From contig NC_015957.1 in the NCBI RefSeq assembly GCF_000147815.2, forward strand, positions 2,666,001-2,730,000: a stretch of 64,000 nucleotides of DNA, in the 5' to 3' direction. Made by a program: the position numbers and the translations under genes. Below, piece by piece: positions 18,290-64,000 of the stretch. The notes below the pieces were generated by a model that did not search any database, had not been told where the DNA came from, and saw only the letters and a list, made by a program, of their open reading frames with translations. This stretch comes from Streptomyces violaceusniger Tu 4113. Its GTDB lineage: Bacteria; Actinomycetota; Actinomycetes; Streptomycetales; Streptomycetaceae. Position 1 is the first letter of the stretch; each line of letters starts with the position of its first letter.

Positions 18290-18310
18290 TCTCCGCCCGG
18301 TCGTGGGTGG

Positions 18311-38119: not shown

Positions 38120-38123
38120 CGGC

Positions 38124-38327: not shown

Positions 38328-38382
38328 GAGCGTTCTCCAAAACGTCCGAAGGCGTACAGCGGGGTGATTGAGGGCATGCTCG

Positions 38383-40190: not shown

Positions 40191-41530
40191 TGTTCGGCTC
40201 CCCACCAGGTGAAGCCCGCCGCTTCAGTGTCCAGTCCGGCATCGATCAGGTCCTGGAGCGTCTCAGCCCGCAAAGGTGTCGCCCGGACCGCGCGGCCGTC
40301 GGGTCCGGGCCGGTAGATCTCGTTCGAGACCAGCTGCGCACCGTCGGCGTCGACGACCTCGCGTACGGAATCGATCACGCGTTTCCCCGTCGTGTCCCAT
40401 CCCAGATGCACGACGAAGTGGACGGCGGAGGCCACCAACAGGTTGGTGGCCTCCAGCGACAGCCTCTCGGGAGCCTGGGCGGCGTACGCGGCGAGCTTGG
40501 TGAACACCCCTCGGGAGGTCGAGGCGTGGATGGTGGACAGCGAGCCGTCGTTGCCCTGGCTCATGGCGTTGCACATCGGGATGACCTCGCTGCCGCGGAT
40601 CTCGCCGACGATCACACGGTCCGGTGACATCCGCAGTCCCCACCGCACCAGTTCCGCCTGGTCGATGGCGCCTTGGCCCTCAATGTTGGGTTCCCGGGCC
40701 TGCATGGCCACAACGTTGGGATGAGCGGCCGTATCGGTGTTGAGGCCGAGCTCGAAAGTGTCCTCGATGGTGATCAGCCGCTCGGTCGGCGGGATCTGCG
40801 AGGCGAAGGCCCTCAGCACGGTGGTCTTCCCGACGTTGGTGCCACCGCCGATGATGATGTTCTTCCGAGCCCGCACAAGCGCTGAGAGGAAACCGGCCAT
40901 GGCCTCATCACATGCTCCGAGGCGCACCAGGTCGTCCATGGACGCGGCAGGGAACCGATGGCGGCGTACTGACAACGAAACGCGGCCGGTCACGGCCATC
41001 ACCGCGAACAGTCGAGACCCGTCGGGGAGCTGGAGATTCAGCCGGGGTACGCCGCGGTCGAAGCGGCGTTCCTCGCCGTCCACGCTCGCGGCCAGGGTGC
41101 GTACCAGTTCGATCAGTTCGGTGTCCGAAGCGGCCACCGGGGAAGTTGACTGCCAGGTGCCGTCCGCACGGCGGATCCACACCGCATCGCACCCGTTGAC
41201 ACAGATGTTCTCGATCGTCTCATCTGCCAGCAGCCGCTCCAGCGTGCCGCTGCCGAACAGCGCATCCATCACAGCCTGCGCGATACGTTGCTCCGCCGCG
41301 CGGCCCATTGCACCACTGCCCCGGGCGAGGGCGACGCGGGCCAGTGACGCGAGCTCCTCGTCTACCAAGCGCCCCACCGTCGCGCGGCGCTGGGTCTCGG
41401 TCTCCGGCGGCAGCCCCGCGGCTTCTCGCTCATCGGCGTAGTGGGCCAGGCGGGCTACTACGCGCTGGCGTACCTCTGCGGCCGGCTCGTGCTCCTCGCC
41501 GCGGCTCTGCTGGACCAGTGTGTTGTTCAT
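40187..41530 (-). CDS. tadA: TadA/CpaF-family secretion ATPase
   Basis: 447 aa. Walker A IIIGGGTNVGKTTVLRAFAS, Asp box/LITIEDTFEL, Walker B RVIVGEIRGSEVIPM, His box STIHASTSRG. N-terminal CpaF region includes LLADETIENICVNGCDAVWI. Powers assembly of the Flp pilus. Central gene of the operon with 4-nt overlaps on both sides. Confidence 0.92.
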   Translation of the reverse strand: MNNTLVQQSRGEEHEPAAEVRQRVVARLAHYADEREAAGLPPETETQRRATVGRLVDEELASLARVALARGSGAMGRAAEQRIAQAVMDALFGSGTLERLLADETIENICVNGCDAVWIRRADGTWQSTSPVAASDTELIELVRTLAASVDGEERRFDRGVPRLNLQLPDGSRLFAVMAVTGRVSLSVRRHRFPAASMDDLVRLGACDEAMAGFLSALVRARKNIIIGGGTNVGKTTVLRAFASQIPPTERLITIEDTFELGLNTDTAAHPNVVAMQAREPNIEGQGAIDQAELVRWGLRMSPDRVIVGEIRGSEVIPMCNAMSQGNDGSLSTIHASTSRGVFTKLAAYAAQAPERLSLEATNLLVASAVHFVVHLGWDTTGKRVIDSVREVVDADGAQLVSNEIYRPGPDGRAVRATPLRAETLQDLIDAGLDTEAAGFTWWGAEQ

Positions 41531-42369
41531 GATGCGGACTCCTTCGGCGCCAGGCCCGCCGCTCGACGGAGGTGCCCGCCGGGGGGTGGCACGGCGCCCA
41601 GCCCCGCGAGATCACCACTCAGCCCCTTCGTCACCACCTCGTCGGTGCCGCTCAGCTGCCGTGCGGCAGCCCCCGCAGCCGCCATCAACGGCGATGCCCT
41701 CCACCCCTTGGCCCGCAGCGCCGAACGAGCGCGGCCGGCCAGAACGTCAGCCGCCTTGGGGTCCCAGGGCAGGAAGACCACGCGGCCCACACCGAGCGTC
41801 GCGGTGATCTCCCCTGCCGCGTACGGGCACGGACCCACCACAGCCAGCACATATTGCTCCACGCGCGGCCCGGCTTCCGAAAAGTGGGCGTATGCATGCG
41901 CCAACGCATCCGCCCCTCCCCGGGACACCAACACCACCGCCTCAGCCGCCTCCATCACGCCCGAGGCGTCGTCGCCGATGCGGCCCATATCCAGCAGAAC
42001 TGTTCCCCGGTCGCTCTCATCTCCTCGCAGCACACGCTGTCCCGGGCCGGCCACCAATCGCACCGCCTCCCCACATGCCCCGCCACCCGCCGGTGAAGCC
42101 ACCACACGGATCCCGAACGGCAGGTCCGTAGCCGCGGCCAGGAGCGAACCCGGCTGCTCCTGGCGGGCGGAGGTGGCCACGTCCAACAGCCCCGGCGTGT
42201 GCGGACACCCGAACCGGACCGCGAGATCCCCGCCCGAAACGTCAGCCTCGACCACCACCGGCCGCACCCCGTGATCAGCCCGGTTCGGCCACACAGCCGC
42301 CAGCGCCAGAACGGTCGTCGTCACCCCCGGCGCGCCCTTGACCGACCCCACCGTGATCAGGCGCCTCAC
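41527..42369 (-). CDS. TadZ/CpaE-like ParA-type ATPase
   Basis: 280 aa. Starts LITVGSVKGAPGVTTTVLAL, a deviant Walker A (KGxxGxTT), and VVEADVSGGDLAVRFG. Later motifs are weak, as in TadZ proteins that localise the pilus machine. Coupled to tadA by a 4-nt overlap. Confidence 0.8.
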   Translation of the reverse strand: MRRLITVGSVKGAPGVTTTVLALAAVWPNRADHGVRPVVVEADVSGGDLAVRFGCPHTPGLLDVATSARQEQPGSLLAAATDLPFGIRVVASPAGGGACGEAVRLVAGPGQRVLRGDESDRGTVLLDMGRIGDDASGVMEAAEAVVLVSRGGADALAHAYAHFSEAGPRVEQYVLAVVGPCPYAAGEITATLGVGRVVFLPWDPKAADVLAGRARSALRAKGWRASPLMAAAGAAARQLSGTDEVVTKGLSGDLAGLGAVPPPGGHLRRAAGLAPKESAS

Positions 42370-43070
42370 GGCGCCTCCCGCCCCTCGGCGGGGAGCACCA
42401 CCACACGCGGGTGCTCCAACCCAGCGGCCCGCCGTACCGCCCCCGTCTCCACCAGGACCGTCACCACTCGCGGACCACCTGGAGAGTCAGCGGTCTTCGC
42501 GGCGGTCACCGTCCCCACGACAGGAGCGACATCCTCCTTCTCCTCGCCGGCCCTGCCTGCGGACCCGCCCGGGCCCTCCAGCACCGCCACTCGGTCACCT
42601 CGCACCACCTCGGGCGACGCATTGCCCACCTCGATGGCGAAGGCCACCTCCGACTGCCCCCGTGGCGGAAAGTCCCGGGCGCCTCCGAACTGTCCCGGTG
42701 CCAACAACGACCCGGCCACCAGTGGCACTTTGGCCCGCTGCCCCAGCACCCTCGCCCGGTCCGCCGCCAACACCACGCCAGTCCCGGATGCCACCTCCGC
42801 CTGACGCAGATCATCCGCGGCGAGAACGTGCCCAACCGGCACATCCCGCGCCAGCACCAACACCTTCTCCCGCCCCCCAACCGCTGAAGCGACCATCACG
42901 AAACCAACCGCAGAGACAACCACCGTCCCCACGCCTGCCCACACCCATCCCGGTCTGCGCCGCACTCCGCCGGTCGCCGCAACCGGCCGCTGCTGCGGAT
43001 CAGACCGGCGCGCACCCGGCAGACCACTACCCGCGCCTCGGGGGCGCGAAGGTGACATAGAGGCACCCAC
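42366..43070 (-). CDS. SAF-domain CpaB/RcpC-like pilus assembly protein
   Basis: 234 aa, GTG start with GGAG six bases upstream. One N-terminal membrane helix (WVWAGVGTVVVSAVGFVMVA), then an SAF domain: VLVLARDVPVGHVLAADDLR and LVAGSLLAPGQF. Extracytoplasmic periplasmic-type assembly factor. Confidence 0.8.
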   Translation of the reverse strand: MGASMSPSRPRGAGSGLPGARRSDPQQRPVAATGGVRRRPGWVWAGVGTVVVSAVGFVMVASAVGGREKVLVLARDVPVGHVLAADDLRQAEVASGTGVVLAADRARVLGQRAKVPLVAGSLLAPGQFGGARDFPPRGQSEVAFAIEVGNASPEVVRGDRVAVLEGPGGSAGRAGEEKEDVAPVVGTVTAAKTADSPGGPRVVTVLVETGAVRRAAGLEHPRVVVLPAEGREAP

Positions 43071-51178: not shown

Positions 51179-52243
51179 ATGCTCGAATCTGTCCGCCACC
51201 TTGATCGGGTGGCCCGCGAGTGGAACATCAACGCCGAAGACGTACTGCTGATCGCGCTGAACGCGTCCGGCGCCCGTTCCCCGCTGACCAAGCCCCGCAT
51301 GCGCTTTCGACTGCGGTTGGACTCCCGTCCCGATTCCCCGCTGTTCCTGATCCTCTCGCTCGGCCGCCAGGAGTCACCGTTCGAACTGGATGAGCACGAA
51401 CTGCGTCTGAACGGCGAGAAGGTCGGCGAAGTCGACAGCATCGAGGACGACGACGCGGTGCTGGGTTACTGGCGTAACGGCACGAAGATGCTCACCCTCA
51501 ATTCCAATGCCCGTAGCCAGTGCACCGGCTGCGTGTTCTGCCCCAACACTCTCGAAGGCGCGTCCGACCCGAAGAGCAAGGCCTTGGACCTGTCCGGCTA
51601 CCTCGGTGCGCTGGCCGCGAACTCCGACATGGAGGATCTGTCGTCAGTACAGACAGTCACGGTGTGCACGGGCTGCTTTCTCCATGAGCACCTCGCGCTC
51701 GACCACCTGGCCGAGGTCCGTACGGCGATGGGCATGAACGGATGCACCGGCACCCTGCACTTCCTGTCCTCCGTTCTGACCAGCGAGAAAGGCATGGACT
51801 CTGCCGCCGACCTGGGACCGTTCCACCTCACGCTGACCGCCGAGTGCTTCACCGAACGACGGCAGATCCTCAAGGAGTCCAAGGCCAAGCTCACTCCGGC
51901 CGAGATGACCGACGCTCTGGGCCGCGCGAAGCAGCGGGGTATCACCACAGACTTCACCTACATCGTCGGCCTGGACCCGATCGAGGACGCCATCAGGCAC
52001 CTCAAGGACTTCGTGCCGGTCACCACCACCTTCCCCCGGTTCCAGACCTACCAGGCCCACAACGCGTTCATGGACATGTACCGCACGCCCGGGTCGGAGA
52101 CGATCGAGTGGCACCTGACCATGCGCCAATGCCTGGAAGAGCTCTTCGCTCCTACAGGGCTGCGTCCACAGTGGTGGCAGAACTACCGCAGCCCGTGGTG
52201 CTTCACCTTCGCCGGGGAGGAATTGACGGGGGCGAAGGTTTGA
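51179..52243 (+). CDS. Radical-SAM-like protein with CxxCxxC cluster motif
   Basis: 354 aa, ATG with AAAGGGA upstream. Three clustered Cys at 115, 118 and 121 (SQCTGCVFCPN) give CxxCxxC in place of canonical CxxxCxxC. The following TIM-barrel pattern fits radical SAM: VTVCTGCFLHEHLALDHLAE, HLTLTAECFTERRQILKESK, LTPAEMTDALGRAKQRGI, YIVGLDPIEDAIRHL. N-terminal ~100 residues are a separate beta-rich domain. First plus-strand gene of the putative biosynthetic cluster. Could perform a radical modification of a nucleoside or sugar; substrate unknown. Confidence 0.7.
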   Translation: MLESVRHLDRVAREWNINAEDVLLIALNASGARSPLTKPRMRFRLRLDSRPDSPLFLILSLGRQESPFELDEHELRLNGEKVGEVDSIEDDDAVLGYWRNGTKMLTLNSNARSQCTGCVFCPNTLEGASDPKSKALDLSGYLGALAANSDMEDLSSVQTVTVCTGCFLHEHLALDHLAEVRTAMGMNGCTGTLHFLSSVLTSEKGMDSAADLGPFHLTLTAECFTERRQILKESKAKLTPAEMTDALGRAKQRGITTDFTYIVGLDPIEDAIRHLKDFVPVTTTFPRFQTYQAHNAFMDMYRTPGSETIEWHLTMRQCLEELFAPTGLRPQWWQNYRSPWCFTFAGEELTGAKV

Positions 52244-52267
52244 TGACGCGGCCGACCACTCCCGCGC

Positions 52268-52597
52268 TCAATGGGATCGGGACGACCGTAGTCCGCGCCG
52301 TCCGTGCGTGGCGGCTATCCCCACAGCCCGCTGGGTTCCCTTCCGGTCTTCCTCAGCCGGTCGCCGCCGCAGTGGGTGAGCCGCCGGCAGGCCCTGCCTG
52401 GGCCGAGCACCGCACCCGGTTCGCCATCGTGTGTGGTTCGTAGGGACGTTTTCACCGTTCTCATACCGACTTACCTCCCGGCGGGTCACCGTCGCCCGGC
52501 CGGACGCCGCGTTGATCGCATCCGCCTGCTCGTCCTGCGATCGGTCCGCGTTACGGCGCAGCTGACGGAGTAGCTCGGCGAACGGATCTGCTGCCAT
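52268..52597 (-). CDS. XRE-family HTH regulator
   Basis: 109 aa, ATG with AGAGG upstream. HTH: FAELLRQLRRNADRSQDEQA ... VTRREVSRYENGENVPTNHT. After that point the sequence turns Arg/Pro-rich, so a frameshift may have replaced the native tail. Only minus-strand gene in the cluster, flanked upstream by GGGGAAA boxes; candidate cluster repressor. Confidence 0.7.
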   Translation of the reverse strand: MAADPFAELLRQLRRNADRSQDEQADAINAASGRATVTRREVSRYENGENVPTNHTRWRTGCGARPRQGLPAAHPLRRRPAEEDRKGTQRAVGIAATHGRRGLRSSRSH

Positions 52598-52641
52598 GAG
52601 TCTGACCTCTATCGGTGGGGGAAAGCCAATCCTCTCTCCAA

Positions 52642-52691
52642 CTCCCCCCTGATTTCCCCCTTGACAAAGATTTCCCCCCTCAGGTTTCCCC
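52642..52691 (-). promoter_or_regulatory. Repeated GGGGGAAATC-type boxes
   Basis: On the minus strand AGGGGAAACC, GGGGGGAAATC, GGGGGAAATC and GGGGGGAGTT occur within 50 bp, ~45 bp before the XRE start. Spacing is uneven (14, 18, 12). Candidate operator cluster for autoregulation. Confidence 0.45.
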
Positions 52692-52809
52692 TGTTACGGA
52701 TGGCGAGGCCGCGGTGCGATGGGCACATGACCACGTACCGGGCAGCATCGTCGCCCCGACCTGAGAGGGATGAGGGCGGGGCCACCGCCGTCAGCAGCGC
52801 ACCCGCCGG

Positions 52810-53025
52810 GTGTTCACACCGGCCGTGCTGCGGCAGAACGCGAAGAACTTCATGAAGGGGCCTACGGCCCGCAAGGCGTGGGCCCTGTCCCGCCACGGAC
52901 GTGCTCTGCAGCCCCGAGGGCGGCGCGACCGCATGCACGTGGCGCTGTTCAATGCCGCGTTCGAGGAGGTCGGCGGCCCGGATCAGTACCCCGAGTGCGA
53001 ACTCGAACCGGGTTCGGCCCTCTGA
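52810..53025 (+). CDS. Small basic hypothetical protein
   Basis: 71 aa, GTG start without clear ribosome-binding site. Sequence VLRQNAKNFMKGPTARKAWA then MHVALFNAAFEEVGGPDQYP. Coding bias suggests a real gene or the end of one. 34 nt before the HAD gene. Confidence 0.4.
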   Translation: MFTPAVLRQNAKNFMKGPTARKAWALSRHGRALQPRGRRDRMHVALFNAAFEEVGGPDQYPECELEPGSAL

Positions 53026-53059
53026 GGCGCGACAGCCACCCCTGACGAGAAGGACGATC

Positions 53060-53767
53060 ATGACCGTTCCCGCTCCGGAATCACCACCGGCTCCGCCCAC
53101 ACCCAGCATCACAGCCAGCGACAGCACGTCGTGCGCACTTCTTCTCGACCTCGACGGCGTCCTGCTCGACACCCGTCCGGTGATGCGGAAGGCGTGGCGG
53201 AAGGTCCAAGAGCTTCACCGCATCACCCTTCCGTTTCACGACTACGAGCGCCACCTGGGGCGCGAATTCGGCGACATCATGCAGCGACTGGGTGTGACCG
53301 ACGCCGAGGCAGTCCGCCGGACGTACGAAACGGAATCCGTCGGCGCCGCACACCTCGCGCAGGAATTCACTGGCATCGTCGAGATGCTCCACGCCTTCGT
53401 GGCCGCCGACTGGCGGCTGGGTGTGGTGACGTCGAAGCACGTCGATCGCGCGGCACCGCTCCTCGCGCGCCTCGGATGTCCCTTCGCGACCATCCGTACC
53501 CCCGCGGGGGCGGGCCGGACGAAGCCGGCCCCAGACCCGCTCCTCCTCGCCCTGGTCGACCTCGGAGTCGATCCCGCCGCAGCCGTGTACGTGGGGGACA
53601 TGGCGGTAGACCAGGAATCGGCCGCCCGCGCCGGGGTCGCCTACATCCACGCTGGATGGGGATACGGGCAGCCCGCCTCTCCCGCACCCGAGACTGCCGC
53701 TTCGCCCAAGGAACTGCTGCGCCTTCTCCGCCCCGCCGAGCAGCTCGTCGAGGGGAGCATGGTGTGA
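53060..53767 (+). CDS. HAD-superfamily phosphatase
   Basis: 235 aa, ATG after GAGAAGGA. Motif I LLLDLDGVLLDTRP, motif II VVTSKHV (Thr), motif III Lys in AGRTKPAPDPLLLAL, motif IV VYVGDMAVDQESAARAG. Phosphoglycolate-phosphatase-like with a helical cap. Probably dephosphorylates a sugar or nucleoside phosphate in the cluster. 4-nt overlap with the next gene. Confidence 0.87.
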   Translation: MTVPAPESPPAPPTPSITASDSTSCALLLDLDGVLLDTRPVMRKAWRKVQELHRITLPFHDYERHLGREFGDIMQRLGVTDAEAVRRTYETESVGAAHLAQEFTGIVEMLHAFVAADWRLGVVTSKHVDRAAPLLARLGCPFATIRTPAGAGRTKPAPDPLLLALVDLGVDPAAAVYVGDMAVDQESAARAGVAYIHAGWGYGQPASPAPETAASPKELLRLLRPAEQLVEGSMV

Positions 53768-55611
53768 GTGCCCCCACGACTGGTGGTCTGGGCCTGGTCC
53801 GCTCCGCCTTCGCCAGGAAGCCAACGTGGGCTCTCGTCGGTAGCGGCGCCCTGGCGCACGCAAGAACCGACCACATCCACACTGCGGAACTGGAAGCCAC
53901 GGCCGTCGACCGGCAGGTGCTGCGCGCTTGCGTCGAGGACGTCATGGCTTCCCTGGATCGCTATGGCGCCTCGCTCGCCTCCACTCCTGGCGGAGCCGGG
54001 TGGCTCCACGTCCAGCATGTTCCCGTGCGGCGCTTCGTTGCCGAGATCGTGCGCAAGCTCCTGGCGCTGAACGCCTGGGAGCCGTTCGCTTCGGCGCCGG
54101 GGCCCCTCGCTCTGGCCCCGTACGAGGGACTCGTGGGACTGCGTTCGAGCAGCTCGCGGGAGTACCTGGCCTACACCGTGACCTGGTCCGGCATCGCGTA
54201 CCTGCTCGGGGCCGCGGCACCGCACAACCCGACCCACTCCGCCCAGCTACGCAACCGCGCCCGGGTAGGGGCGGCGAACACGGAGCCGAGCCCACTCCCC
54301 GCGGACGTGCGAAGGCAGGACGTCTTGGCGCTGTCCTGGACCTCCCGGCACGCTGCCACGCTGATGCCGGTTCTCGCCGAACTGGCGCGCGACGGACAGA
54401 CGAGTCTTCTGCTCGATCTCGCCACCGATGCCGCAGAGCGGTGCTCCGCGGGATCGGTCACAGGCATCGAACTGCGCTCGGCGCCGAGTGACCTCTTCAC
54501 CCTCTCCGGCACCGCCGAGGGCCTACGCCTGTCTGACGACGAGCACGTAGTCCACGTGGAAGGCCACGATGTTCAACTCGCGCGGCTGGTGCGGCTCTTG
54601 TCAGTTCTGCTCGAAACCAGCGGTGGCTGCACACAGCCGTCGTGGCGGACCCTGGTGCGGGCGGAGAGCTGGCTCGACGACATGCTGTCGACAGCCCGGC
54701 CGCACACCGTCCTCCTGAGTAACGACACCAGCCCCCTCGGCGTGCTGGCCGCGCACGTCGCCGAACGACACGGCGCGAATTCGGTGCACGTCCAGCACGG
54801 GGCGTGGACGGCGGAATCGGCAGCCTGGCCGGCCCTGCACAGCCGCGACATCATCGTCATGGGCGAACGAGACCTTGCTCTGGGACGAGCGTGGGTGCGC
54901 CACCCCGACGCTGAGGTGCACGTACTCGGACAGCCCCGCTTCGATGTACTCGCCGGTCTGGGCCGCGAGGCACAGCGACGGTACCTGGAGAAGCTGCTGG
55001 CTCTGGGTAGCCGCCACGTGCCCGCCCGGATCGCGGTGTGGGCCTGCCAGCCGTTCAGCCCGGATCACCTCAAGTCCCATGCGGACTTTCTCCTGGACGG
55101 CCTTGGTGAGGCGGACGGCGGCTGGGGTCTCGTCATAGCTCCACACCCGGCGCAGGGTGCCGATGCCTTCACCTCTCTTTTGAAGCGGGATGGCGGGCCG
55201 CTCGTTGCCGTGGCCGATCCCCGGGTCGGTGCGCGAGGCTGCCTCGCCGGCGCTGACGCCCTGGCGAGCGCGTACTCGACGTGCGGGATCGAAGCCGCGC
55301 TGCTCGGGGTCCCGGTCCTCGAAATCGGCCCGCCGGGTGAACGCACGCTGGACCTGGCCGGTCACGGTCTCGCGACCCGCTGCCTTGACGCCGGTGGCGT
55401 CGCCGAAGCGCTTTCCGCACCGCGTGAACCGCGTACGCCCATCCCGCAGACGGCCCTGGACGCGGTGTGCCGGTGGCGTGGCGACAGCGCGGCTCGGATC
55501 GCTCGCCTCATCACCGATCGTGCCGCATCCGCCAACGGGTCGTCCAATCCCATCCACCAAGATGCGGGCGCCTCTGCGTCGCCCCAGGACGAAGGAGCAT
55601 CCGTCCGATGA
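53764..55611 (+). CDS. GT-B-like glycosyl/glycerophosphotransferase
   Basis: 615 aa, GTG start. C-terminal half resembles CDP-glycerol/capsular GT-B enzymes: VHVQHGAWTAESAAWPALHS, DIIVMGERDLALGRAWVRHP, HVLGQPRFDVLAGLG, LVIAPHPAQGADAFTSLL, ALASAYSTCGIEAALLGVPV. N-terminal half not recognised. Translation coupled to the HAD gene and to the thymidylate-synthase-like gene. Confidence 0.7.
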   Translation: MSAPTTGGLGLVRSAFARKPTWALVGSGALAHARTDHIHTAELEATAVDRQVLRACVEDVMASLDRYGASLASTPGGAGWLHVQHVPVRRFVAEIVRKLLALNAWEPFASAPGPLALAPYEGLVGLRSSSSREYLAYTVTWSGIAYLLGAAAPHNPTHSAQLRNRARVGAANTEPSPLPADVRRQDVLALSWTSRHAATLMPVLAELARDGQTSLLLDLATDAAERCSAGSVTGIELRSAPSDLFTLSGTAEGLRLSDDEHVVHVEGHDVQLARLVRLLSVLLETSGGCTQPSWRTLVRAESWLDDMLSTARPHTVLLSNDTSPLGVLAAHVAERHGANSVHVQHGAWTAESAAWPALHSRDIIVMGERDLALGRAWVRHPDAEVHVLGQPRFDVLAGLGREAQRRYLEKLLALGSRHVPARIAVWACQPFSPDHLKSHADFLLDGLGEADGGWGLVIAPHPAQGADAFTSLLKRDGGPLVAVADPRVGARGCLAGADALASAYSTCGIEAALLGVPVLEIGPPGERTLDLAGHGLATRCLDAGGVAEALSAPREPRTPIPQTALDAVCRWRGDSAARIARLITDRAASANGSSNPIHQDAGASASPQDEGASVR

Positions 55612-56558
55612 CACACCTCACCGCCGACAGCATGGCCGAGCTGTTCTCCGGCGCTGTCACGCTGGCCAAATCCGGCGAGAAGGTCAGCCCACGGGGCATG
55701 GCCACCCGCGAAGTCCGTGACGTCCACCTGCTGCTCGCCCAGCCGCGCGCCCGTCTGCTCTACGCACCGCCGACCCGGATCGTGAACCCGGCCTTCGCGG
55801 TCGCCGAGACAGTTTGGCACCTGTCCGGATCCGACGCCTCGTGGATCTTCGACTACAACGAACGGCTGCGGCAGTACGCCGACGACGGTGTCCTCCTCGG
55901 TGCGTACGGACCCAGGATGCGGAACTGGGCCGGCAAGGTGGACCAACTGGCCCGCGTCGTGGAGATCCTCAAGGAGGACCCCGACTCCCGGCGAGCCCTG
56001 ATCCAGCTCTACGACCCGGCCCAGGACGCCGCAGGGCACAAGGACGTGCCTTGCACCCTCGGTTTCCGGTTCCACCTTCGCGCCGACCGCCTGCACATGG
56101 CGACCATGATGCGCGGCCAGGACGTGTGGATCGGCATGCCGTACGACGTGTTCTTCTACACCGTGCTGCACGAGCTGGTCGCCGGGTGGCTCGACGCGGA
56201 GCTGGGCGAGTTCCACCTGCACGTCGGCTCGCTGCACATCTACGACGAACACGTCGAGCAGGCCGAGCTACTGACCTCGCTCGCGGCGAGCCCGCACATG
56301 CCTGACCTGCGAACGCCCTGGACAGGCTTCGCCAGCCTGCTCGACCAGGTCGAGGCCCGCGACGTGACCGGCCACCCCGGCTGGGACGCGATGGCCGAGA
56401 CGCTGCGCAGTTACCGGCTGTGGAAGGACGGCAAGCGCGAGCAGGCGGGGCGGGCGGCCGACAGGATCGACGGCCCCCTCGGCCAGGCCCTCACCGCCTG
56501 GTACGGAGAGCTGAAGCGGCGCTCGACCAAGCGCGCCGCGACGGCCGGGGCAAGGTGA
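55608..56558 (+). CDS. Thymidylate-synthase-family (d)CMP hydroxymethylase-like enzyme
   Basis: 316 aa. ThyA fold: catalytic Cys149 in HKDVPCTLGFRFHLR, Arg169 and Asp172 in MMRGQDVWIGMPYDVFFY, His210 and Tyr212 in GSLHIYDEH. The residue aligned with E. coli Asn177 (LPFNIASY) is Asp180 (MPYDVFFY). Asn to Asp here is known from T4 dCMP hydroxymethylase and the mildiomycin CMP hydroxymethylase MilA, where it selects cytosine. So it likely makes 5-hydroxymethyl-(d)CMP using methylene-tetrahydrofolate, not dTMP. Overlaps the upstream gene; the carbamoyltransferase follows at once. Confidence 0.8.
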   Translation: MTHLTADSMAELFSGAVTLAKSGEKVSPRGMATREVRDVHLLLAQPRARLLYAPPTRIVNPAFAVAETVWHLSGSDASWIFDYNERLRQYADDGVLLGAYGPRMRNWAGKVDQLARVVEILKEDPDSRRALIQLYDPAQDAAGHKDVPCTLGFRFHLRADRLHMATMMRGQDVWIGMPYDVFFYTVLHELVAGWLDAELGEFHLHVGSLHIYDEHVEQAELLTSLAASPHMPDLRTPWTGFASLLDQVEARDVTGHPGWDAMAETLRSYRLWKDGKREQAGRAADRIDGPLGQALTAWYGELKRRSTKRAATAGAR

Positions 56559-56566
56559 CCGCCGCC

Positions 56567-58285
56567 ATGAAGCGCACACCTTCCGTCGTCCTCGGCCTGT
56601 GCTCGTACACCCACGACTCGTCGGCCGCCCTTCTCGTGGACGGTGAACTCGTCGGCTTCGTCGAGGAGGAGCGCCTCTCCGAGCAGAAGCACACCAAGCT
56701 TTACCCGGCCCGCGCCATCGGGTGGCTGCTCGGCCAGGCCAAGCTGAGCGCCGACGACGTGGACGCCGTCGCCTACAACTTCCAGCCCTCCCGCTACCTC
56801 GCCGAGTCGCCCGCCGCCCTGCGCCTGGCGCTCTCGCCGACGACGCGCGACCGGAGCCTGGCGCGTGCTCACGGGTTTGCCAAGGTGGCCGTGCGTACCC
56901 GGCAGCGGCTGCGTGTCCTCGGCAGCCAGTTCCCCTCTGCCCACGTCACCCCGGTCCTGCACCACCGCGCTCACCAGCTCACCGCCTTCGCCGCCTCGGG
57001 CTGGGACGAAGCCGCCGTGCTCGTGGTCGACAGCCTCGGCGAGCGGCAGACCACCACCATCGCGCGGGGCCACGGCACTCGTCACCCCCGGTCCCAGACG
57101 CTGGAAGCGATCAACGACCCGGCCTCCCTGGGGTACGTGTACGGCGCTGTCACCGAGCACCTGGGCTGGCGCCGGGGTGACGAGGAAGGCACCGTCATGG
57201 CACTGGCCGCCCTCGGCGCCCCCGCCCGCTTCCGCCATCTGTTCGCGAGGGCCATCCGCACGACGGCTACGGGCTTCCGCATCGACCCCGGCTACTTCCC
57301 CACACGCACCCTCACGTCGGGATACCAGAGGACATCGCGGCGGTTCGTCACCGAGACCTGCCCCGAGCGGCACCCGAGCGAACCGCTCACGGACCTCCAC
57401 CGAGACCTGGCGGCTGCCCTCCAGGAGCGGACCGAGCAGGTGATGGTGCACCTCGCCCGCCGCGCCCGTGTGCTCAGCGGCTCCCGACGCCTGTGCGTGG
57501 GAGGCGGTGTCGCCACGAACTGCGTGAGCATCGGGAAGATCATCGAGTCCGGCATCTTCGACGAGGTATTCGTACCGCCCGCCCCTGGTGACGCCGGTAC
57601 CGCGATCGGCGCCGCCCTCGCCGTGCACGTCGACCGGCGCAACCCTCGCCCGGTCGCCGGCGTCGCCCGCACCTGCTACCTCGGCCCCTCCTACGAGGAC
57701 CAGCCCCTCGACCTCACCCCCTGGCCCGGCCTCCGCCAAAAAACCCTGGGCATCGAGACCGCCGAGTTCCTCGCCGACCAGCTCGCCCACGGCACGATCG
57801 CCGGACTGTTCCAGGGTGCCGTCGAAGCCGGGCCGCGCGCCCTGGGCAACCGCTCGATCCTTGCCTCCCCGCTGGAGCTCGGCGTCGTGAAGCGCCTGAA
57901 TGCCACCGTGAAGTTCCGTGAACCGTTCCGGCCCTTCGCCCCCATGGTCCCCGCCGAGCGCGCTGACGAGTTCTTCACGCTCGGCCAGCCGGCGCCGTAC
58001 ATGTCCATGGCCTCCGGGGTGACGGACAAAACGCGCGAGCGTGTGCCAGCCATCGTGCACGCCAACGGCACCGCTCGCCTGCAGACCGTCACCAGGTCGC
58101 AGAACCCCTTCATGCACGAGGTCCTGACCGCCTTCGGCCGCCGGACCGGCGTGCCCGTGCTGATCAACACCTCCCTCAACGTCAAGGGAAAGCCGATCTG
58201 CGGGACACCCGAGATGGCCCTGGACTGCCTGGCCAACTCTGGACTCGACGCCCTGCTCCTCGAAGGGCGGTGGATCACCAAGTGA
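56567..58285 (+). CDS. NodU/CmcH-family O-carbamoyltransferase
   Basis: 572 aa (ATG 56567; GTG 56555 also possible). Kae1-like N-terminal domain: VVLGLCSYTHDSSAALLVDG, metal His in LHHRAHQLTAFAASG, VLVVDSLGERQTTTI, ARVLSGSRRLCVGGGVATNC; C-terminal YrdC-like part with GAVEAGPRALGNRSILASP, FREPFRPFAPMVP and LINTSLNVKGKPICG. Transfers carbamoyl from carbamoyl phosphate via carbamoyl-AMP to a hydroxyl. A natural acceptor would be the 5-hydroxymethyl group made by the preceding enzyme, or a sugar. Confidence 0.88.
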   Translation: MKRTPSVVLGLCSYTHDSSAALLVDGELVGFVEEERLSEQKHTKLYPARAIGWLLGQAKLSADDVDAVAYNFQPSRYLAESPAALRLALSPTTRDRSLARAHGFAKVAVRTRQRLRVLGSQFPSAHVTPVLHHRAHQLTAFAASGWDEAAVLVVDSLGERQTTTIARGHGTRHPRSQTLEAINDPASLGYVYGAVTEHLGWRRGDEEGTVMALAALGAPARFRHLFARAIRTTATGFRIDPGYFPTRTLTSGYQRTSRRFVTETCPERHPSEPLTDLHRDLAAALQERTEQVMVHLARRARVLSGSRRLCVGGGVATNCVSIGKIIESGIFDEVFVPPAPGDAGTAIGAALAVHVDRRNPRPVAGVARTCYLGPSYEDQPLDLTPWPGLRQKTLGIETAEFLADQLAHGTIAGLFQGAVEAGPRALGNRSILASPLELGVVKRLNATVKFREPFRPFAPMVPAERADEFFTLGQPAPYMSMASGVTDKTRERVPAIVHANGTARLQTVTRSQNPFMHEVLTAFGRRTGVPVLINTSLNVKGKPICGTPEMALDCLANSGLDALLLEGRWITK

Positions 58286-59333
58286 AGATCGGATACAGCT
58301 TCTGGGGCTTCCTCGGCAACGGGGTCACCGACACCCCGGACGGGGCCGCAGCCACCGCCGCCCCTTCATCGACGCCCTCAGCGCCCGCGGGCACAACGTC
58401 GTCTTCCTCCAGGCCGACCGCGACCGCCTCGAAGCCGGCGACGACCTCGGCGACGTATACACCTTCGACGACGGCACCCCCGGCATCGACGTCCTGTTCC
58501 TGGAATGGCGCTGGGCGATCCCCGGCCGCAACACCACGGTCTGCGGGGCCGAGGGGCACACCTGCGATCTCCACCGTCAGGCCCAGCTCATCAACCACTA
58601 CACGGTGCGGCACCGTACGCCTACCGTGATCTGGGACAAGGACCGCACACTGCGGGCCGAGAGCGTGTGGCGACGTTCGGCCCACACCCTCGTCTGCGAG
58701 GCCGCGCTCGCCCCGACCCACGGCGCACGCTCCCTACTCTTCCCCGTAGCCGAGGACCTCATCGCTCAGGCGGACCCCGTGGCCCTCGCGGCACAGCGGC
58801 GGGACCTCGTGCTCGGCTACGTGGGCAACCAGTACGACCGCGACGAGCCCTTCGAGCGCTTCTTCGCCCCGGCCGCCGCCCGCGTCGATCACCTGGTCGC
58901 CGGAAAATGGACGAAGACCGACCGCTGGCCGCACGTCCGCTTCGTGGGCCGGATCCCGTTCGAGGCCGCCGTCGGCGTCTACGGCCGGTCTCTGGCCACA
59001 GTGCTCATGCTGCCCGAGCGGTACGCCGCCGTCGGGCAGATGACCCAGCGCATCTTCGAGGCCGTGCTCGCCGGGTGCCTGCCGCTGGCCCCGGCGGACA
59101 TCCGCTTCGCCGACCGGTTCGTCCCGCAGGAGCTGGTCGTGCGCTCCGGCCGAGACGTGCTCGAACGCCTCTCCTACCTCCGCGAGATCGCCGGCACCCA
59201 GCAGCACGCCGACCTGATCGGCGCGTGCGTGGACTGTCTGCGCCTGTTCGGCCTGAGCAAGCAGGTCGACACCCTGGAATCCGTCCTGCACGGGCTCGTC
59301 GGGACCACCGCGACCGAGCGGGGAGCTGCCTGA
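58282..59333 (+). pseudogene. CgeB-like glycosyltransferase, single-base frameshift
   Basis: Starts GTG overlapping the carbamoyltransferase stop (KIGYSFWGFLGNGVTDTPDG). In the C-run at 58361-58364 one base is missing: upstream frame ends ...ATAAP and the matching frame resumes FIDALSARGHNVVFLQADRD. With the base restored it is ~350 aa: DVLFLEWRWAIPGRN, RTPTVIWDKDRTLRAESVWR, LVLGYVGNQYDRDEPFERFF, and MTQRIFEAVLAGCLPLAPAD of the glycosyltransferase C-terminal domain. May be a real inactivation, a sequencing error or phase variation. Confidence 0.75.
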
Positions 59334-59429
59334 TGCAGACCGCTCGACAGGCCACGGCACCTGGATCATCCAATCGTGTCCGGGAGGATGGGCCCGCCGG
59401 ACACCCGAATCTCTCTACGCTGGAGCACC

Positions 59430-59939
59430 ATGAAGAAGGTCGCCATCGTCGGCTGCGGAGGCAGCGGCAAATCCCACGTGGCCCGCGAACTGGGCATGAT
59501 CCTCGACGCCCCGGTGACGCATCTGGACGCCGCGTTCTACGACGACGAGTGGAACGCGCTACCCATGGACAAGTTCACCGAAGTGCAGCGCGAGCTGGTC
59601 GCGCAGCCGCGGTGGGTGATCGACGGCAACTACAACTCGACGCTGCAGGTGCGGCTCGAAGCCTGCGACACGGTGGTCCTGATGGACGTGTCGACGGTAG
59701 CGGCGCTGTACGGGATCTTCTCCCGGCAGATCCGGCACGGGGCCGGGCACAAGGGCAACGGGGTGCACAACCGCATCCACTGGGGCGTGATCAAGTACGT
59801 CGCTACGTACCGGCGCAAGATGAGGCCGCGCGTGATGGCGAAGATCGAGGAGTTCGGCTCCCGCGCCGACGTGGTGCTGCTGGCCAACCGACGCCAGACG
59901 CGCCGCTGGCTGCGGAAGGTGGCCGCCGAGCAGGCCTGA
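59430..59939 (+). CDS. P-loop kinase-like protein (adenylate-kinase/topology-modulation type)
   Basis: 169 aa from ATG 59430 (GGAG upstream). Walker A KVAIVGCGGSGKSHVARELG; VTHLDAAFYDDEWNALPMDK; QPRWVIDGNYNST, typical of the FlaR-like/DNA-topology-modulation kinases. Arg-rich lid RQIRHGAGHKGNGVHNRIH. Might phosphorylate a nucleotide or sugar in the pathway. Confidence 0.8.
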   Translation: MKKVAIVGCGGSGKSHVARELGMILDAPVTHLDAAFYDDEWNALPMDKFTEVQRELVAQPRWVIDGNYNSTLQVRLEACDTVVLMDVSTVAALYGIFSRQIRHGAGHKGNGVHNRIHWGVIKYVATYRRKMRPRVMAKIEEFGSRADVVLLANRRQTRRWLRKVAAEQA

Positions 59940-59970
59940 ACGGCCCGCGCCCCCGAGCAGGGGGTGCGGC

Positions 59971-60819
59971 ATGAACGAGCCCAACCCGTTCCTGGACCCC
60001 GCCCAGCAGCAGGAGCTGTATGGGCATGCCTCGCGGCTGGCCGGGCGGACCAGCGCCCTGATGCGCGCGAAGACCTCCGGCCACCCCGTGCCCGAGACGA
60101 TCGTCAGTCTGGTGCAGACCCACCACGCGCAGCCTGACTGGCTCGGCGTGGTGCTCGACATCGGCTGCGGTCGCGGCACGAGCAGCCTCGTCATCGCCGA
60201 GCAGCTCCGGCCGCAGCGCGTCGTCGGCCTGGATGCCGCCCCCTCCCTGCTGGCCCATGCCCGCGAGCGCGCCAAGGAGCTGCACGACACCACGGTGGAC
60301 TTCGTCGAAGGCGACTTCCACGACCTTCCGCTGCCCGCCGGATCGTGCGACGTTGCCGTCGCCGCGTTCTGCCTCTACCACTCGCAGCACCCCGAGGACG
60401 TCATCGCGCAGATCGCCAGGGTCCTCGCCCCTGGAGGCCTGGCCGTGCTCGTCACCAAGGGCCTCGACAGCTACCAGGAGATGGACCAGCTGGTCGCCTC
60501 CGCCGGCCTTGACCCGCGGGCCGACCAGCACGAGAGCCTCTACACCGCAGCCCACAGCGGCAACCTCGCCGACCTGGCCGCCTCCTCGCTCGACGTGTTC
60601 GCCGTCCTGGACGAGGAGCACGCCTTCACCTTCGACGGCCACGACCACACGGCGCAGTACCTGGCCAGCAACCCCAAGTACGACCTCGCGCCTGGCCTGT
60701 ACGGCAACCCCGGAGCCTTGGCCGCGACCCTGCACGAATTCCTTCCCGACCAGCCACTCACCACCCGGTCCCGCATCACCTTCGTCGTCGCCCAGCCGAA
60801 CGAAGGGCGGCCAACATGA
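59971..60819 (+). CDS. SAM-dependent methyltransferase, class I
   Basis: 282 aa. Motif I VVLDIGCGRGTSSLVIAEQL, motif post-I VGLDAAPSLLAHARERAKEL, DFVEGDFHDLPLPAGSCDVA, APGGLAVLVTKGL. Methyltransf_11-type small-molecule enzyme. 4-nt overlap with the next kinase gene. Confidence 0.85.
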   Translation: MNEPNPFLDPAQQQELYGHASRLAGRTSALMRAKTSGHPVPETIVSLVQTHHAQPDWLGVVLDIGCGRGTSSLVIAEQLRPQRVVGLDAAPSLLAHARERAKELHDTTVDFVEGDFHDLPLPAGSCDVAVAAFCLYHSQHPEDVIAQIARVLAPGGLAVLVTKGLDSYQEMDQLVASAGLDPRADQHESLYTAAHSGNLADLAASSLDVFAVLDEEHAFTFDGHDHTAQYLASNPKYDLAPGLYGNPGALAATLHEFLPDQPLTTRSRITFVVAQPNEGRPT

Positions 60820-61577
60820 GCCTCACGCCGTTCACCAAGCCCTACGCGACACCGGAGCGCGCGGTGAGGGCTGTGCGCCACTACCGGTGGATCAACGAAC
60901 ACGCAAAGCCGCTGCAGCAGCCGGCTCTCCGCACCATCGGGCCGACCAGCCTGACGTTCGAACGGATCGAGGGCCGCCCCGTACGTCCCGCGGATCTCCC
61001 GCGCATGGCGGAACTGCTGGGCCACGCCCACGGTGCCGCCTGGGCCAGCGACCTGCAGTCCGCGTCGCTGGGCACCCCGCACCGCTTCCAGGACGGCACG
61101 ACGTTCGACGACTACCTCGACCTCCGGGAGATCGCGCTCCGGCGTCGCCACGAGCAGGGCTACCTGCCGAACAAGGTGGCCTTGTACGCGATGCTTGGCC
61201 TGCTGGAAGAGACCGCCCAGGGGCCGTTCGCCTTCTACAAGGACAGCAACCCGCGGAACTTCATCATCACCAGCACGCAGGACATCGTCACCATCGACAC
61301 CGACGACCTGTCCCTCGCCCCGATGGGATACGACCTCGCCAAGCTCATCGCGACGCTCCACCTGACATACGGACCACTCACGGACCAAGCCGTCAACGCT
61401 GCCCTGCTCGCGTACAACGCGGCGGCCGGAAGCTACAACGCCCGGCTCGGCACCACAGACCGCGAACGACTCGGCGACTTCCTGACCCTGCACGCCGTCC
61501 TGACCGCGCCATACGTCGGGCGCAACGGTTACCGCTACAGCTGGCCGATCCGGTCCCACCTCCGAGGAGCCTCATGA
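60816..61577 (+). CDS. Aminoglycoside-phosphotransferase-fold kinase
   Basis: 253 aa. Catalytic segment FYKDSNPRNFIITSTQDIVT (usual H-D-x-x-x-x-N pattern reads K-D-x-x-x-x-N) and metal Asp in VTIDTDDLSLAPMGYDLAKL. N-lobe is short, with FERIEGRPVRPADLPRMAEL. Probable small-molecule kinase. Couples to the methyltransferase and histidine phosphatase by 4-nt overlaps. Confidence 0.75.
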   Translation: MSLTPFTKPYATPERAVRAVRHYRWINEHAKPLQQPALRTIGPTSLTFERIEGRPVRPADLPRMAELLGHAHGAAWASDLQSASLGTPHRFQDGTTFDDYLDLREIALRRRHEQGYLPNKVALYAMLGLLEETAQGPFAFYKDSNPRNFIITSTQDIVTIDTDDLSLAPMGYDLAKLIATLHLTYGPLTDQAVNAALLAYNAAAGSYNARLGTTDRERLGDFLTLHAVLTAPYVGRNGYRYSWPIRSHLRGAS

Positions 61578-62230
61578 TCACCACTGAACTCGTCTTCGTA
61601 CGGCACGGCCAGGCCCAGTGCAACACCGACGGCCTCGTCGGGGGCCCGCGCACCTGCACGGGCCTGACCAACCTCGGGTACGCCCAGGCCGAACAGGTTG
61701 CACGCCGCCTGGCTACCGAACACCTGAAGAAGCCCTTCGACGTGGTCTACGCGGGCCCGCGGACCCGTCTCGTCCAGACCGGCGAGATCATCGCCAAGAC
61801 GCTCCAGATCCCACTGCACGACGACGATCGTCTCGACGGCCCGGTCCACGGCGATGCCGACGGCAAACCTTGGGATGCGGTGAAGACGGCCGCCAACGGC
61901 GGACCGCATGCGCATCCCGACACTCCCTGGGCCGCTGGCTCCGACACCTGGAACGGGTTCCTGAAGCGCGCCAGCAGGAACCTGAACCAGCTCATCGGGG
62001 AGAACCAGGGGAAGCGCATCGTGTTCGCGGCCCACGGGGAGACGGTTATCACCGCACACACTCTGCTGCTCGGCATCCCGATCGGCTCGCCGACCGGTTT
62101 CACCCACAACCACGCTTCGATCACCCGCTGGCAGCACCACCGCAACCGCCTGGGCCAGACCCGCTGGATGCTCGACCGGCACAACGACACCGAGCACCTC
62201 AGTCTCCTCACGCCGGAGCCGACTCCGTGA
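61574..62230 (+). CDS. Histidine phosphatase (phosphoglycerate-mutase-like)
   Basis: 218 aa. RHG motif LVFVRHGQAQCNTDGLVGGP with catalytic His, YAGPRTRLVQTGEIIAKTLQ, second His in IVFAAHGETVITAHTLLLG. Likely removes phosphate from a pathway intermediate. Overlaps both neighbours by 4 nt. Confidence 0.85.
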   Translation: MITTELVFVRHGQAQCNTDGLVGGPRTCTGLTNLGYAQAEQVARRLATEHLKKPFDVVYAGPRTRLVQTGEIIAKTLQIPLHDDDRLDGPVHGDADGKPWDAVKTAANGGPHAHPDTPWAAGSDTWNGFLKRASRNLNQLIGENQGKRIVFAAHGETVITAHTLLLGIPIGSPTGFTHNHASITRWQHHRNRLGQTRWMLDRHNDTEHLSLLTPEPTP

Positions 62231-63063
62231 TCGCGACATCGGACGACCCCCGGATCCGATTGGCGCACCACTTCCTCGGCGCAGTCGAGGTCGCACCCGA
62301 CCCCCTGCTTCCGCCCCGGGTCCTGCGTGTGGTGAGCGGCGACGGGCGTCACTTCGTCGCCAAGCAGCACGCAGAGCGAGACCGGTACGCAGGGGAACTC
62401 CACGCCTACCGGGCATGGGTCACCCACCTGACCCGCCACGCGCCGAAGCTGGTCGGCCGTGACGACGCCACCCGCACCCTGCTGCTGACCGCCCGCACAG
62501 GCGATCGGGCGGACACCGCGGCCCCGGGCTCACCGGAGGAGGAACTGGCCCACCACGAGGCCGGCCACGTCCTCGGCAAGCTCCACCGGGCCACCGCCAT
62601 GCCCCAGGGCGGCGCCGCTGGCGCAGCGCTCGCCGAGCGCTTCCAGAGCTGGATCGACCGGGCCGTCCACGCCGACCTGATCGACACGGCCGAGGAGAAC
62701 CTGCTGAAGCACCACGCGGCCATCCTGGGAAACAGCGGCATGGACAGTGCGGTCTGCCATCTCGACTACCAGCCGCGCAACTGGCTGATAGGCGACACCT
62801 TCGGTGTCTGCGACTTCGAGCACATGCGACACGACGCCCGTGTCCGCGACTTCGCACGGCTCGAATTCCGACGCTGGCAAGCCGCACCCCACCTCCGTAC
62901 GGCTTTCTTCGACGGCTACGGGCGTCCGCTGAACGACACCGAGCGTCGCCTCTTGGAGTCCTTCGGCGCCATCGAGGCGGCCACGGCCCTGGTCAAGGGC
63001 CATCAGGAGAACGACCCCACCCTCAGCGAGCACGGCAGAACCGTCCTGTCCCGGCTCACCTGA
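62227..63063 (+). CDS. Aminoglycoside-phosphotransferase-fold kinase, second
   Basis: 278 aa, GTG start. Brenner motif VCHLDYQPRNWLI and metal Asp VCDFEHMRHDARVRDFARLE. N-lobe HFVAKQHAERDRYAGELHAY includes the ATP-binding Lys and Glu. Canonical HxDxxxxN, unlike the first kinase. Possibly sugar or nucleoside kinase, or self-resistance enzyme. Confidence 0.82.
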   Translation: MIATSDDPRIRLAHHFLGAVEVAPDPLLPPRVLRVVSGDGRHFVAKQHAERDRYAGELHAYRAWVTHLTRHAPKLVGRDDATRTLLLTARTGDRADTAAPGSPEEELAHHEAGHVLGKLHRATAMPQGGAAGAALAERFQSWIDRAVHADLIDTAEENLLKHHAAILGNSGMDSAVCHLDYQPRNWLIGDTFGVCDFEHMRHDARVRDFARLEFRRWQAAPHLRTAFFDGYGRPLNDTERRLLESFGAIEAATALVKGHQENDPTLSEHGRTVLSRLT

Positions 63064-63098
63064 CCTTCCTCTTCGACGACACCTCTCTGGAGATCCCC

Positions 63099-64000
63099 GT
63101 GCCGCAGCACGAGCAGCCCCCGATCACCGCTGCCCCCCGTCGGGCCGTGGTGACCGGCGCCGCCGGATTCATCGGCTCCCACCTCGCACACGCCCTCGTC
63201 CAGGCTGGCACCACCGTGATCGGCGTGGACCGCCAAGACCCGTCCACCGACCCTACGGCCGTCGCCAACCTCGCTACGCTGCGGGGGCTCCCGGGATACC
63301 ACCACGTCACGGCCGACCTCCTCCACTGCGCGATCGACCCTCTCCTGATCGACGCGGACGCGGTCTTCCACCTCGCCGGAATCCCCGGCGTACGGCCCTC
63401 CTGGGGACCGCAGTTCGGCGACTACCTCGCGTCCAACGTGCTGGCCACCCACCGAGTCCTGGAAGCCTGCACCCGCATCAGTGTCCCCCGACTGGTCGTC
63501 GCCTCCTCCTCCAGCGTCTACGGTCCGACCGACGGCGGCGCGAGCCTCGAGGCCGACCGTCCGAAACCCGCCTCCCCTTACGCCGTGACCAAACTGGCCG
63601 AGGAACAGCTCTGCCTCGCCTACGCCGAGCGCCCCATCGGCCCCAGCGTTGTCGCCCTGCGGTACTTCACCGTCTACGGCCCCCGGCAGCGCGCCGACAT
63701 GTTCACCCACCGCGCCCTGCAGGCCGCCCTGACCGGACAGCCGCTGCGTCTGTACGGAGACGGCCATCAGCGACGCGACTTCACCTACATCGACGACGTG
63801 GCCGCCGCCACGATCGCCGCCGCCGTCGTGCCGACCGCCCAGGGTGCCATCAACGTCGGCGGCGGATCGAACGCATCGCTGCTGGACGTGATCAACATCG
63901 CCACCAGCCTCACCGGCCGCGACATCCAGCTCCACCAGGACCACGCGCGCAACGGTGACGTCCTCCTCACCCGGGCCGACCCCAGCCGCGCCCGAGAAGT
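63099..64000 (+). CDS. NAD-dependent sugar epimerase/dehydratase, 3' end outside window
   Basis: At least 300 codons from GTG 63099 (GGAG six bases upstream) and open at the window edge. Extended SDR: VTGAAGFIGSHLAHALVQAG (GxxGxxG), VFHLAGIPGVRPSWG, VVASSSSVYGPTDGG, catalytic SPYAVTKLAEEQ (YxxxK), LRYFTVYGPRQR, RRDFTYIDDVAAA. Similar to UDP-glucose/glucuronate 4-epimerases. Would supply the sugar donor for the cluster's glycosyltransferases. Confidence 0.88.
   Translation, partial: MPQHEQPPITAAPRRAVVTGAAGFIGSHLAHALVQAGTTVIGVDRQDPSTDPTAVANLATLRGLPGYHHVTADLLHCAIDPLLIDADAVFHLAGIPGVRPSWGPQFGDYLASNVLATHRVLEACTRISVPRLVVASSSSVYGPTDGGASLEADRPKPASPYAVTKLAEEQLCLAYAERPIGPSVVALRYFTVYGPRQRADMFTHRALQAALTGQPLRLYGDGHQRRDFTYIDDVAAATIAAAVVPTAQGAINVGGGSNASLLDVINIATSLTGRDIQLHQDHARNGDVLLTRADPSRARE

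Follow-up and report, generated by a model that had tools for sequence, protein, structure and literature searches.

The window analyzed here is a 64,000-nucleotide (nt) stretch of the chromosome of Streptomyces violaceusniger Tu 4113 (positions 2666001-2730000, forward strand; the contig measures 10.66 Mb and the genome 11.1 Mb). Toward its right end lies a run of 14 plus-strand genes, which begins with a HAD-family phosphatase gene at 53060 and ends at 66709 with a homolog of the CMP-3-deoxy-D-manno-octulosonate (CMP-KDO) synthetase KdsB (Table 1). This right border is located 2.7 kb beyond the end of the window; genes past 64000 were read on from the same chromosome, with the coordinates continued. 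Families were assigned with Pfam and NCBIfam, and include a thymidylate synthase (ThyA) homolog predicted to hydroxymethylate cytosine nucleotides, an O-carbamoyltransferase, and a CgeB-like glycosyltransferase (GT). A first-pass annotation of the window had described a compact run of overlapping genes as an undescribed cluster for a modified cytosine nucleoside. The gene types that it named are present, and of the 4-nt overlaps that it reported between neighbors, 8 are found at the 13 junctions from HAD to KdsB (with the starts chosen in this analysis). The run is indeed compact; however, it does not begin at the radical S-adenosylmethionine (SAM) gene at 51179, and it does not stop at the window end. 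Reading past 64000, as had been proposed, revealed the end of the epimerase gene, followed by the S-adenosylhomocysteine (SAH)-hydrolase-like, NUDIX and KdsB genes.

Table 1. Genes of the cluster, in window coordinates continued past position 64000.
Feature	Position	Strand	Basis or remark
HAD-family phosphatase; forms an accessory unit together with GT-B and KdsB	53060..53767	+	PF13419, E 2e-24
Second glycosyltransferase-like protein (GT-B), 615 amino acids (aa)	53764..55611	+	GT-B fold over C-terminal two thirds; no Pfam family
Putative (d)CMP 5-hydroxymethylase, thymidylate-synthase fold	55608..56558	+	PF00303, E 5e-30
O-carbamoyltransferase (CarbT), NodU/GdmN/TobZ type	56555..58285	+	PF02543, E 5e-41; PF16861, E 3e-61
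CgeB-like glycosyltransferase resembling T4 beta-glucosyltransferase	58282..59333	+	PF13524, E 1e-7 (piece downstream of frameshift)
P-loop small-molecule/nucleotide kinase, FlaR "DNA topology modulation" family	59430..59939	+	NF005994, E 2e-46, under curated cut-off
SAM-dependent methyltransferase (MT1)	59971..60819	+	PF13649, E 3e-23
APH-fold kinase 1 (APH1)	60816..61577	+	PF01636, E 5e-7
Histidine-phosphatase family phosphatase (HisP)	61574..62230	+	PF00300, E 2e-28
APH-fold kinase 2 (APH2)	62227..63063	+	PF04655, weak, E 0.001, under cut-off
NAD-dependent epimerase (Epim), nearest UDP-glucuronate 4-epimerases	63099..64097 (window stops at 64000)	+	profile matches
SAH-hydrolase-like (SAHH)	64123-65250	+	outside window
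NUDIX	65247-65807	+	outside window
KdsB homolog	65843-66709	+	outside window

The cluster is real and conserved as a block, as the first-pass annotation had anticipated. At E <= 1e-20, 75 of 392 genomes of the genus contain a match to the hydroxymethylase; 28 of these, S. violaceusniger included, reach at least 60% identity, and the remaining matches are at or below 44%. In 27 fetched loci the order HAD-GTB-ThyA-CarbT-CgeB-Ploop-MT1-APH1-HisP-APH2-Epim-SAHH-NUDIX-KdsB is kept for the genes present, and shortened copies occur, some of them at contig ends (e.g., L043, L050, L056, L060, L061). Since the gene order is kept in other genomes, the arrangement is not a product of chance. A scan of GTDB species genomes with the hydroxymethylase, from which the best 80 of 98 relatives were retained, extends the distribution beyond Streptomyces, which provides most of the 80, to Asanoa, Actinacidiphila, Streptantibioticus, Thermoactinospora, Glycomyces, Sinosporangium, Bailinhaonella, Nocardia, Micromonospora, Prauserella, Amycolatopsis, Kitasatospora, and others. 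Genes were counted in 70 of these 80 loci, as 10 have too little flank, under a loose rule (>25 aa aligned, >30% identity). In these 70 loci, which were found by the ThyA homolog itself, the core genes are those for the hydroxymethylase (70), the carbamoyltransferase and CgeB-like GT (69 each), the P-loop kinase and APH1 (67 each), the epimerase (66), MT1 (62), the histidine phosphatase (60) and APH2 (60).

Two cluster types can be distinguished. In type A, the Streptomyces type to which this window belongs, HAD and GT-B genes lie upstream and KdsB is usually last. Type B, which is spread over many genera at about 50-57% identity, opens with the epimerase and has no HAD, GT-B or KdsB gene. HAD is present in 51 of the 70 full loci and tracks the GT-B gene. 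All three genes are found in 44 of the 70 loci and none in 18, with GT-B alone in one; another 7 have HAD and GT-B and no KdsB match, a count to be read with the position of KdsB in mind, at the outermost edge of the sequence fetched. Because of this joint presence and absence, HAD, GT-B and KdsB are regarded as one accessory unit. In Streptomyces tanashiensis JCM 4086 the cluster is present twice, on separate contigs (L109, L115).

The predicted cytosine-nucleotide hydroxymethylase is the ThyA homolog, whose best match in the PDB is MilA, the hydroxymethylase of the mildiomycin pathway (E 1.7e-34). Its residues at the informative positions are Glu67, Arg128, Cys149, Gly170, and Asp180. Counted over this sequence and 79 open reading frames (ORFs) from 78 of the 80 loci, Arg128 is present in 79 of 80 with one gap, where MilA has Lys133; position 170, which corresponds to MilA Ala176, is Gly in 52, Ser in 26, Ala in one, and a gap in one; and the cytosine-type Asp180 (MilA Asp186) is kept in 79 with one gap. 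Type A enzymes have Gly at position 170, whereas type B enzymes have Ser in 21 of 22 ORFs and Ala in the other. Ser together with the Arg and Asp is also found in L130 and L132-L135, and the same Arg/Ser/Asp signature occurs in the enzymes of phage G and phage DSL. By comparison, MilA and all 10 other Streptomyces homologs have Lys and Ala. According to the MilA study, Lys133 and Ala176 set the ribose preference, the A176S/K133R mutant shifts from CMP to deoxy-CMP (dCMP), and Asp186 is the criterion for cytosine (PMC5175136). Because Arg and Ser replace the two residues that set the CMP preference of MilA, the type B enzyme looks, from its residues, like a dCMP enzyme.

The cluster enzymes form a separate clade in a phylogeny. 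The FastTree tree, built on the stretch 26-230, comprises 22 cluster sequences (that of this window and 21 from the 80 loci), the 10 other Streptomyces homologs, MilA, one thymidylate synthase, and 5 phage enzymes, the latter taken from 1823 phage records with a match. The cluster enzymes are split from all others by a single branch (0.97), and MilA groups with the 10 other Streptomyces homologs at 0.999; the inner order of the tree is poorly supported.

The CgeB-like GT, encoded two genes downstream, has an apparent frameshift in this genome within its first ~25 codons (58282-58360), which is either an assembly error or real. Relatives carry intact copies: 74 of 75 related ORFs in the 80-relative loci have at least 330 aa. 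For relatives of the enzyme, profile comparison, Foldseek and VIA-align all place T4 DNA beta-glucosyltransferase (BGT) first, with other GT-B enzymes tying, at a sequence identity of 10-13%. In an hhalign alignment that is itself weak, Arg269 and Glu272 of BGT, presumably contacts to UDP, are paired with the invariant Arg257 and Glu260. Neither 50,697 phage records nor 72,556 plasmid records gave a relative of this GT.

Among the remaining enzymes, the carbamoyltransferase is full length, with both its N- and C-terminal domains (PF02543 and PF16861), and matches GdmN (E about 1e-83) and TobZ (9e-69). The epimerase, in which the catalytic Tyr161 and Lys165 are invariant in 13 aligned sequences, matches the PDB profiles of MoeE5 (E 1e-107), 6zl6 (2e-100) and 6zlj (1e-99), followed at a distance by the next at 1e-64. 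MoeE5 and 6zl6 are UDP-glucuronate 4-epimerases; since the cluster epimerase is far nearer to these two than to other solved structures, its sequence makes UDP-galacturonate the likely donor sugar. The P-loop kinase keeps its Walker A motif GCGGSGK in 10 of 10 aligned sequences, and APH1 its KDxNxRN and DxD motifs in 11; these two and the GT-B protein give weak matches only against PDB profiles. The GT-B protein has no Pfam match at E 0.01, a weak match to a surface-polysaccharide model, and 222 homologs, with most of the 120 listed named hypothetical. Its AF2 model has a mean confidence (pLDDT) of 75, and the top structural matches are UDP-GlcNAc 2-epimerases, MurG and other GT-B proteins. 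Because of this pLDDT and of root-mean-square deviations of 8-12 A in the VIA matches, the assignment is limited to a GT-B fold. The SAH-hydrolase-like protein keeps a Lys/Asp pair and a Glu of AhcY and is without its GHFD motif. The matches of KdsB are CMP-KDO synthetases throughout, among them 1gq9 at a profile E of 6e-57.

From these families, conservation patterns, residue signatures, clade and fold matches, we infer each reaction, the order of steps, the sugar and the product of the following scheme. The ThyA-fold enzyme would convert dCMP and/or CMP, with methylene-tetrahydrofolate, to the 5-hydroxymethyl nucleotide. The epimerase would form UDP-galacturonate from UDP-glucuronate, and the BGT-like enzyme could transfer this or another UDP-sugar onto the 5-hydroxymethyl group. 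A hydroxyl would be carbamoylated by the carbamoyltransferase, with the methyltransferase, P-loop and APH kinases and phosphatases serving in tailoring and in moving phosphate. In the Streptomyces type, the second unit of HAD, KdsB and GT-B could add a CMP-activated acidic sugar, and the SAH-hydrolase-like dehydrogenase may act on a sugar. The product would be a small nucleoside or nucleotide that, unlike mildiomycin, is not derived from the free base. That such a phage-like hydroxymethylcytosine glycosylation module yields a 5-hydroxymethyl(deoxy)cytidine compound that is carbamoylated and probably uronosylated is, in our estimation, a proposition with the chances for and against it evenly balanced.

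The mildiomycin pathway itself offers the nearest alternative. Here a MilA-type enzyme would act on CMP, the base would be freed, and the CgeB-like enzyme would join a uronic acid to it in a MilC-like role, giving a nucleoside antibiotic. Both systems would have cytosine nucleotide hydroxymethylation by a thymidylate synthase-fold enzyme in Streptomyces, with MilA as the closest solved structure to the cluster enzyme. The cluster also contains a UDP-uronate-type epimerase, so that a uronate donor, likely on sequence grounds, would be common to both, and Gly at the MilA Ala176 site leaves space for ribose. In mildiomycin biosynthesis, MilC puts UDP-glucuronate on hydroxymethylcytosine, and the route requires MilB (PMC11784345). 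However, in a joint search of 16 genomes chosen by the analyst, 11 with the cluster and 5 of MilA type, the MilB hydrolase family PF05014 was found in 5 of 5 MilA-type genomes, in 4 of them no more than about 1.2 kb from the milA-like gene, and in 0 of the 11 cluster genomes. Because the mildiomycin route needs MilB and its family is absent from these 11 genomes, the base is probably not freed in the cluster pathway. An aminotransferase is likewise missing among the conserved genes, and among the proteins compared, the GT resembles BGT most. One observation weighs on the other side: cluster genome G343 also has a Lys/Ala-type homolog (L172) without PF05014, so the pairing of the two is not constant. 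On the basis of the Arg at position 128 with Ser or Gly at 170, the separate clade and the MilB control, membership of the cluster enzyme in the MilA group was rejected; the MilA-type start from CMP that the first-pass annotation had proposed is not supported. A mildiomycin-like pathway is considered unlikely. The general idea of that annotation holds, but neither the mechanism built on MilA nor the proposed borders stand, which leaves it partly supported.

The glycosylated hydroxymethylcytosine could alternatively be destined for DNA or RNA of the host or of a resident element, in the manner in which T4 modifies its own DNA. T4 (gp42, b-gt) likewise combines a ThyA-fold cytosine hydroxymethylase (hhalign Prob 95), which has the Arg and Asp in common with the cluster enzymes, with BGT, which the cluster GT resembles, and with a kinase, gp1. 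The type B signature shared with phage G and phage DSL fits this possibility, as does a viral contig (L182) in which both this GT and the hydroxymethylase adjoin a DNA polymerase. The L182 hydroxymethylase retrieved 14 loci (with 6-kb flanks), and of these L182 alone has the GT as well. In the neighborhood of the cluster, 17 flanking families are common to at least 4 loci, and the matches of the 16 that were scanned, with one representative each, include no transporter, a further point in favor. In contrast to T4, the cluster sits on bacterial chromosomes, and neither its genes nor the scanned flanking families include a polymerase or a dCTPase. It also has a carbamoyltransferase between the hydroxymethylase and a GT that shares hardly any sequence with BGT, a uronate-type epimerase, and a second sugar module; the presence of phosphatases, a methyltransferase, APH kinases, KdsB and an additional GT points to a small molecule, and Ser is replaced by Gly in the Streptomyces type. 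Nucleic acids are an improbable target on this evidence. Another viral contig, L181 from IMG/VR, differs in its gene set, which comprises a ThyA homolog, a 391-aa protein, an AAA_28 match, an aldo-keto reductase and a CgeB-like GT (50%); a weak TPR match lies close by. Relatives of the carbamoyltransferase occur in 135 phage records, mainly of cyanophages, the 20 listed having about 27-32% identity.

A surface glycan locus would use the GTs, epimerase, KdsB and carbamoyltransferase for the decoration of a cell-wall polymer, with the ThyA homolog either incidental or forming dTMP. Such a locus would fit the weak polysaccharide-model match of the GT-B protein; glycan loci often contain KdsB and UDP-uronate epimerases, and NodU-type carbamoyltransferases act on sugars. 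This is nevertheless quite improbable, given that the hydroxymethylase and CgeB-like GT co-occur in 27 of 28 genomes and in 70 and 69 of the 70 hydroxymethylase-found loci, that the ThyA homolog keeps the cytosine Asp and overlaps its neighbors by 4 nt, and that polymerase, flippase and membrane-protein families did not turn up among the scanned cluster genes. Moenomycin, whose sugar genes include a carbamoyltransferase, is similar in that MoeE5 is nearest to the cluster epimerase and sugar O-carbamoylation is plausible; yet the cluster is headed by a pyrimidine hydroxymethylase, and the phosphoglycolipid genes of moenomycin were not seen. As in the KDO pathway, KdsB stands in one run with an HAD phosphatase gene and a GT, whereas KDO-8-phosphate synthase (PF00793) has 0 matches in the genome, in a search whose control was positive in 11 of 14 known genomes; the KDO pathway thus led nowhere as an explanation for KdsB.

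An intracellular antimetabolite, a modified (d)CTP analog made by the kinases to poison phage or rival polymerases, is very hard to credit: the P-loop kinase (67 of 70 loci), the patchy spread and the lack of a transporter in the scanned flanking families agree with it, but the phosphatases argue for phosphate removal, and no PADLOC model matched 9 of 10 scanned proteins (8 of these from the cluster, of 14 genes), the tenth being a NACHT-FGE protein outside of the cluster with a weak mad8 match. A PADLOC defense system was rejected on the same 9 of 10. The NACHT-FGE gene, which did not turn up alongside the cluster at other loci, lies downstream of the cluster at L002:16097-19605, where a methyltransferase gene and that for the 905-aa NACHT/FGE-sulfatase protein overlap by 4 nt.

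Returning to a carbamoylated and glycosylated 5-hydroxymethyl(deoxy)cytidine product, the cluster conforms to an undescribed modified-cytosine pathway, as first suggested: it is conserved as a block, has genes predicted to serve hydroxymethylation, O-carbamoylation and glycosylation, and contains no nonribosomal peptide synthetase (NRPS) or polyketide synthase (PKS) in its conserved part. Of the two outcomes that the first-pass annotation had named as refuting, a lack of joint conservation was not observed; as regards the other, formation of dTMP only, the residue for base recognition is the cytosine-type Asp in 79 of 80 sequences, with one gap. No paper recognized as describing the cluster turned up in the literature searched. 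The xinaomycins of S. noursei were considered as a candidate product; the text consulted on them gives no cluster for comparison. More tentatively, actinobacteria may have taken over a phage-type module of dCMP-type hydroxymethylase, BGT-like GT and kinase, for which L182 could represent the ancestral arrangement; combined with carbamoylation and uronic or ulosonic sugars, it might lead to hypermodified nucleic-acid bases or to a new class of glycosyl-hydroxymethyl(deoxy)cytidine metabolites, a possibility that we consider rather doubtful. If these readings are true, nucleoside-like compounds of a widespread class have gone unnoticed behind generic gene labels and the lack of NRPS and PKS genes, and the chemistry with which phages disguise their bases would have a bacterial counterpart, linking phage DNA modification to bacterial metabolism.

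The radical-SAM gene (51179-52243), which the first-pass annotation had taken as the left end, was rejected as a cluster member. It ends 816 nt before HAD, and its product has 0 matches in the 27 related loci (at 40% coverage or >50% identity) and 0 in the 80 further loci (>40% coverage), two sets that share some genomes and are not summed. In other cluster-carrying genomes its homologs sit elsewhere, unlinked, and at the genome level the association is weak (5 of 27 cluster genomes vs. 17 of 364 others, own genome excluded; Fisher p 0.012). Residues 86-136 of the protein match PDB "WRAP-T" chains (whole-sequence E 2.4e-9), a similarity that is unexplained. Some type B clusters have a radical-SAM gene of their own between the GT and the P-loop kinase, recognized by Pfam match in L150 (11086-11931) and by eye in L136 (13675-14517); the 51179 protein has no match in either locus. 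Between the radical-SAM and HAD genes, a minus-strand frame (52244-52600) resembles, by eye, the N-terminus of a helix-turn-helix regulator.

The scanned flanking families match TPR, HATPase, DUF6082, 2'-5' RNA-ligase-like, TrmO, CutA, WhiB, DUF218, DUF2637, relaxase, and IstB proteins; others give weak integrase and P450 matches, and two have no match. Elsewhere in the window, a serine recombinase gene (PF07508) overlaps the end of a tRNA-Leu (16461-18384), which suggests the edge of an integrated element, and no exact 18-mer of this tRNA-Leu is repeated as an attachment site in 111 kb. A Tad/Flp pilus-type locus with T2SSE, T2SSF, Tad and SAF matches occupies 36832-43070 on the minus strand, adjoining a BTAD/LysM protein gene. 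Beyond the window, at about 87.6-104.4 kb in continued coordinates (L003, L004), lie very long minus-strand ORFs of 2252, 1650, 993 and 714 aa.

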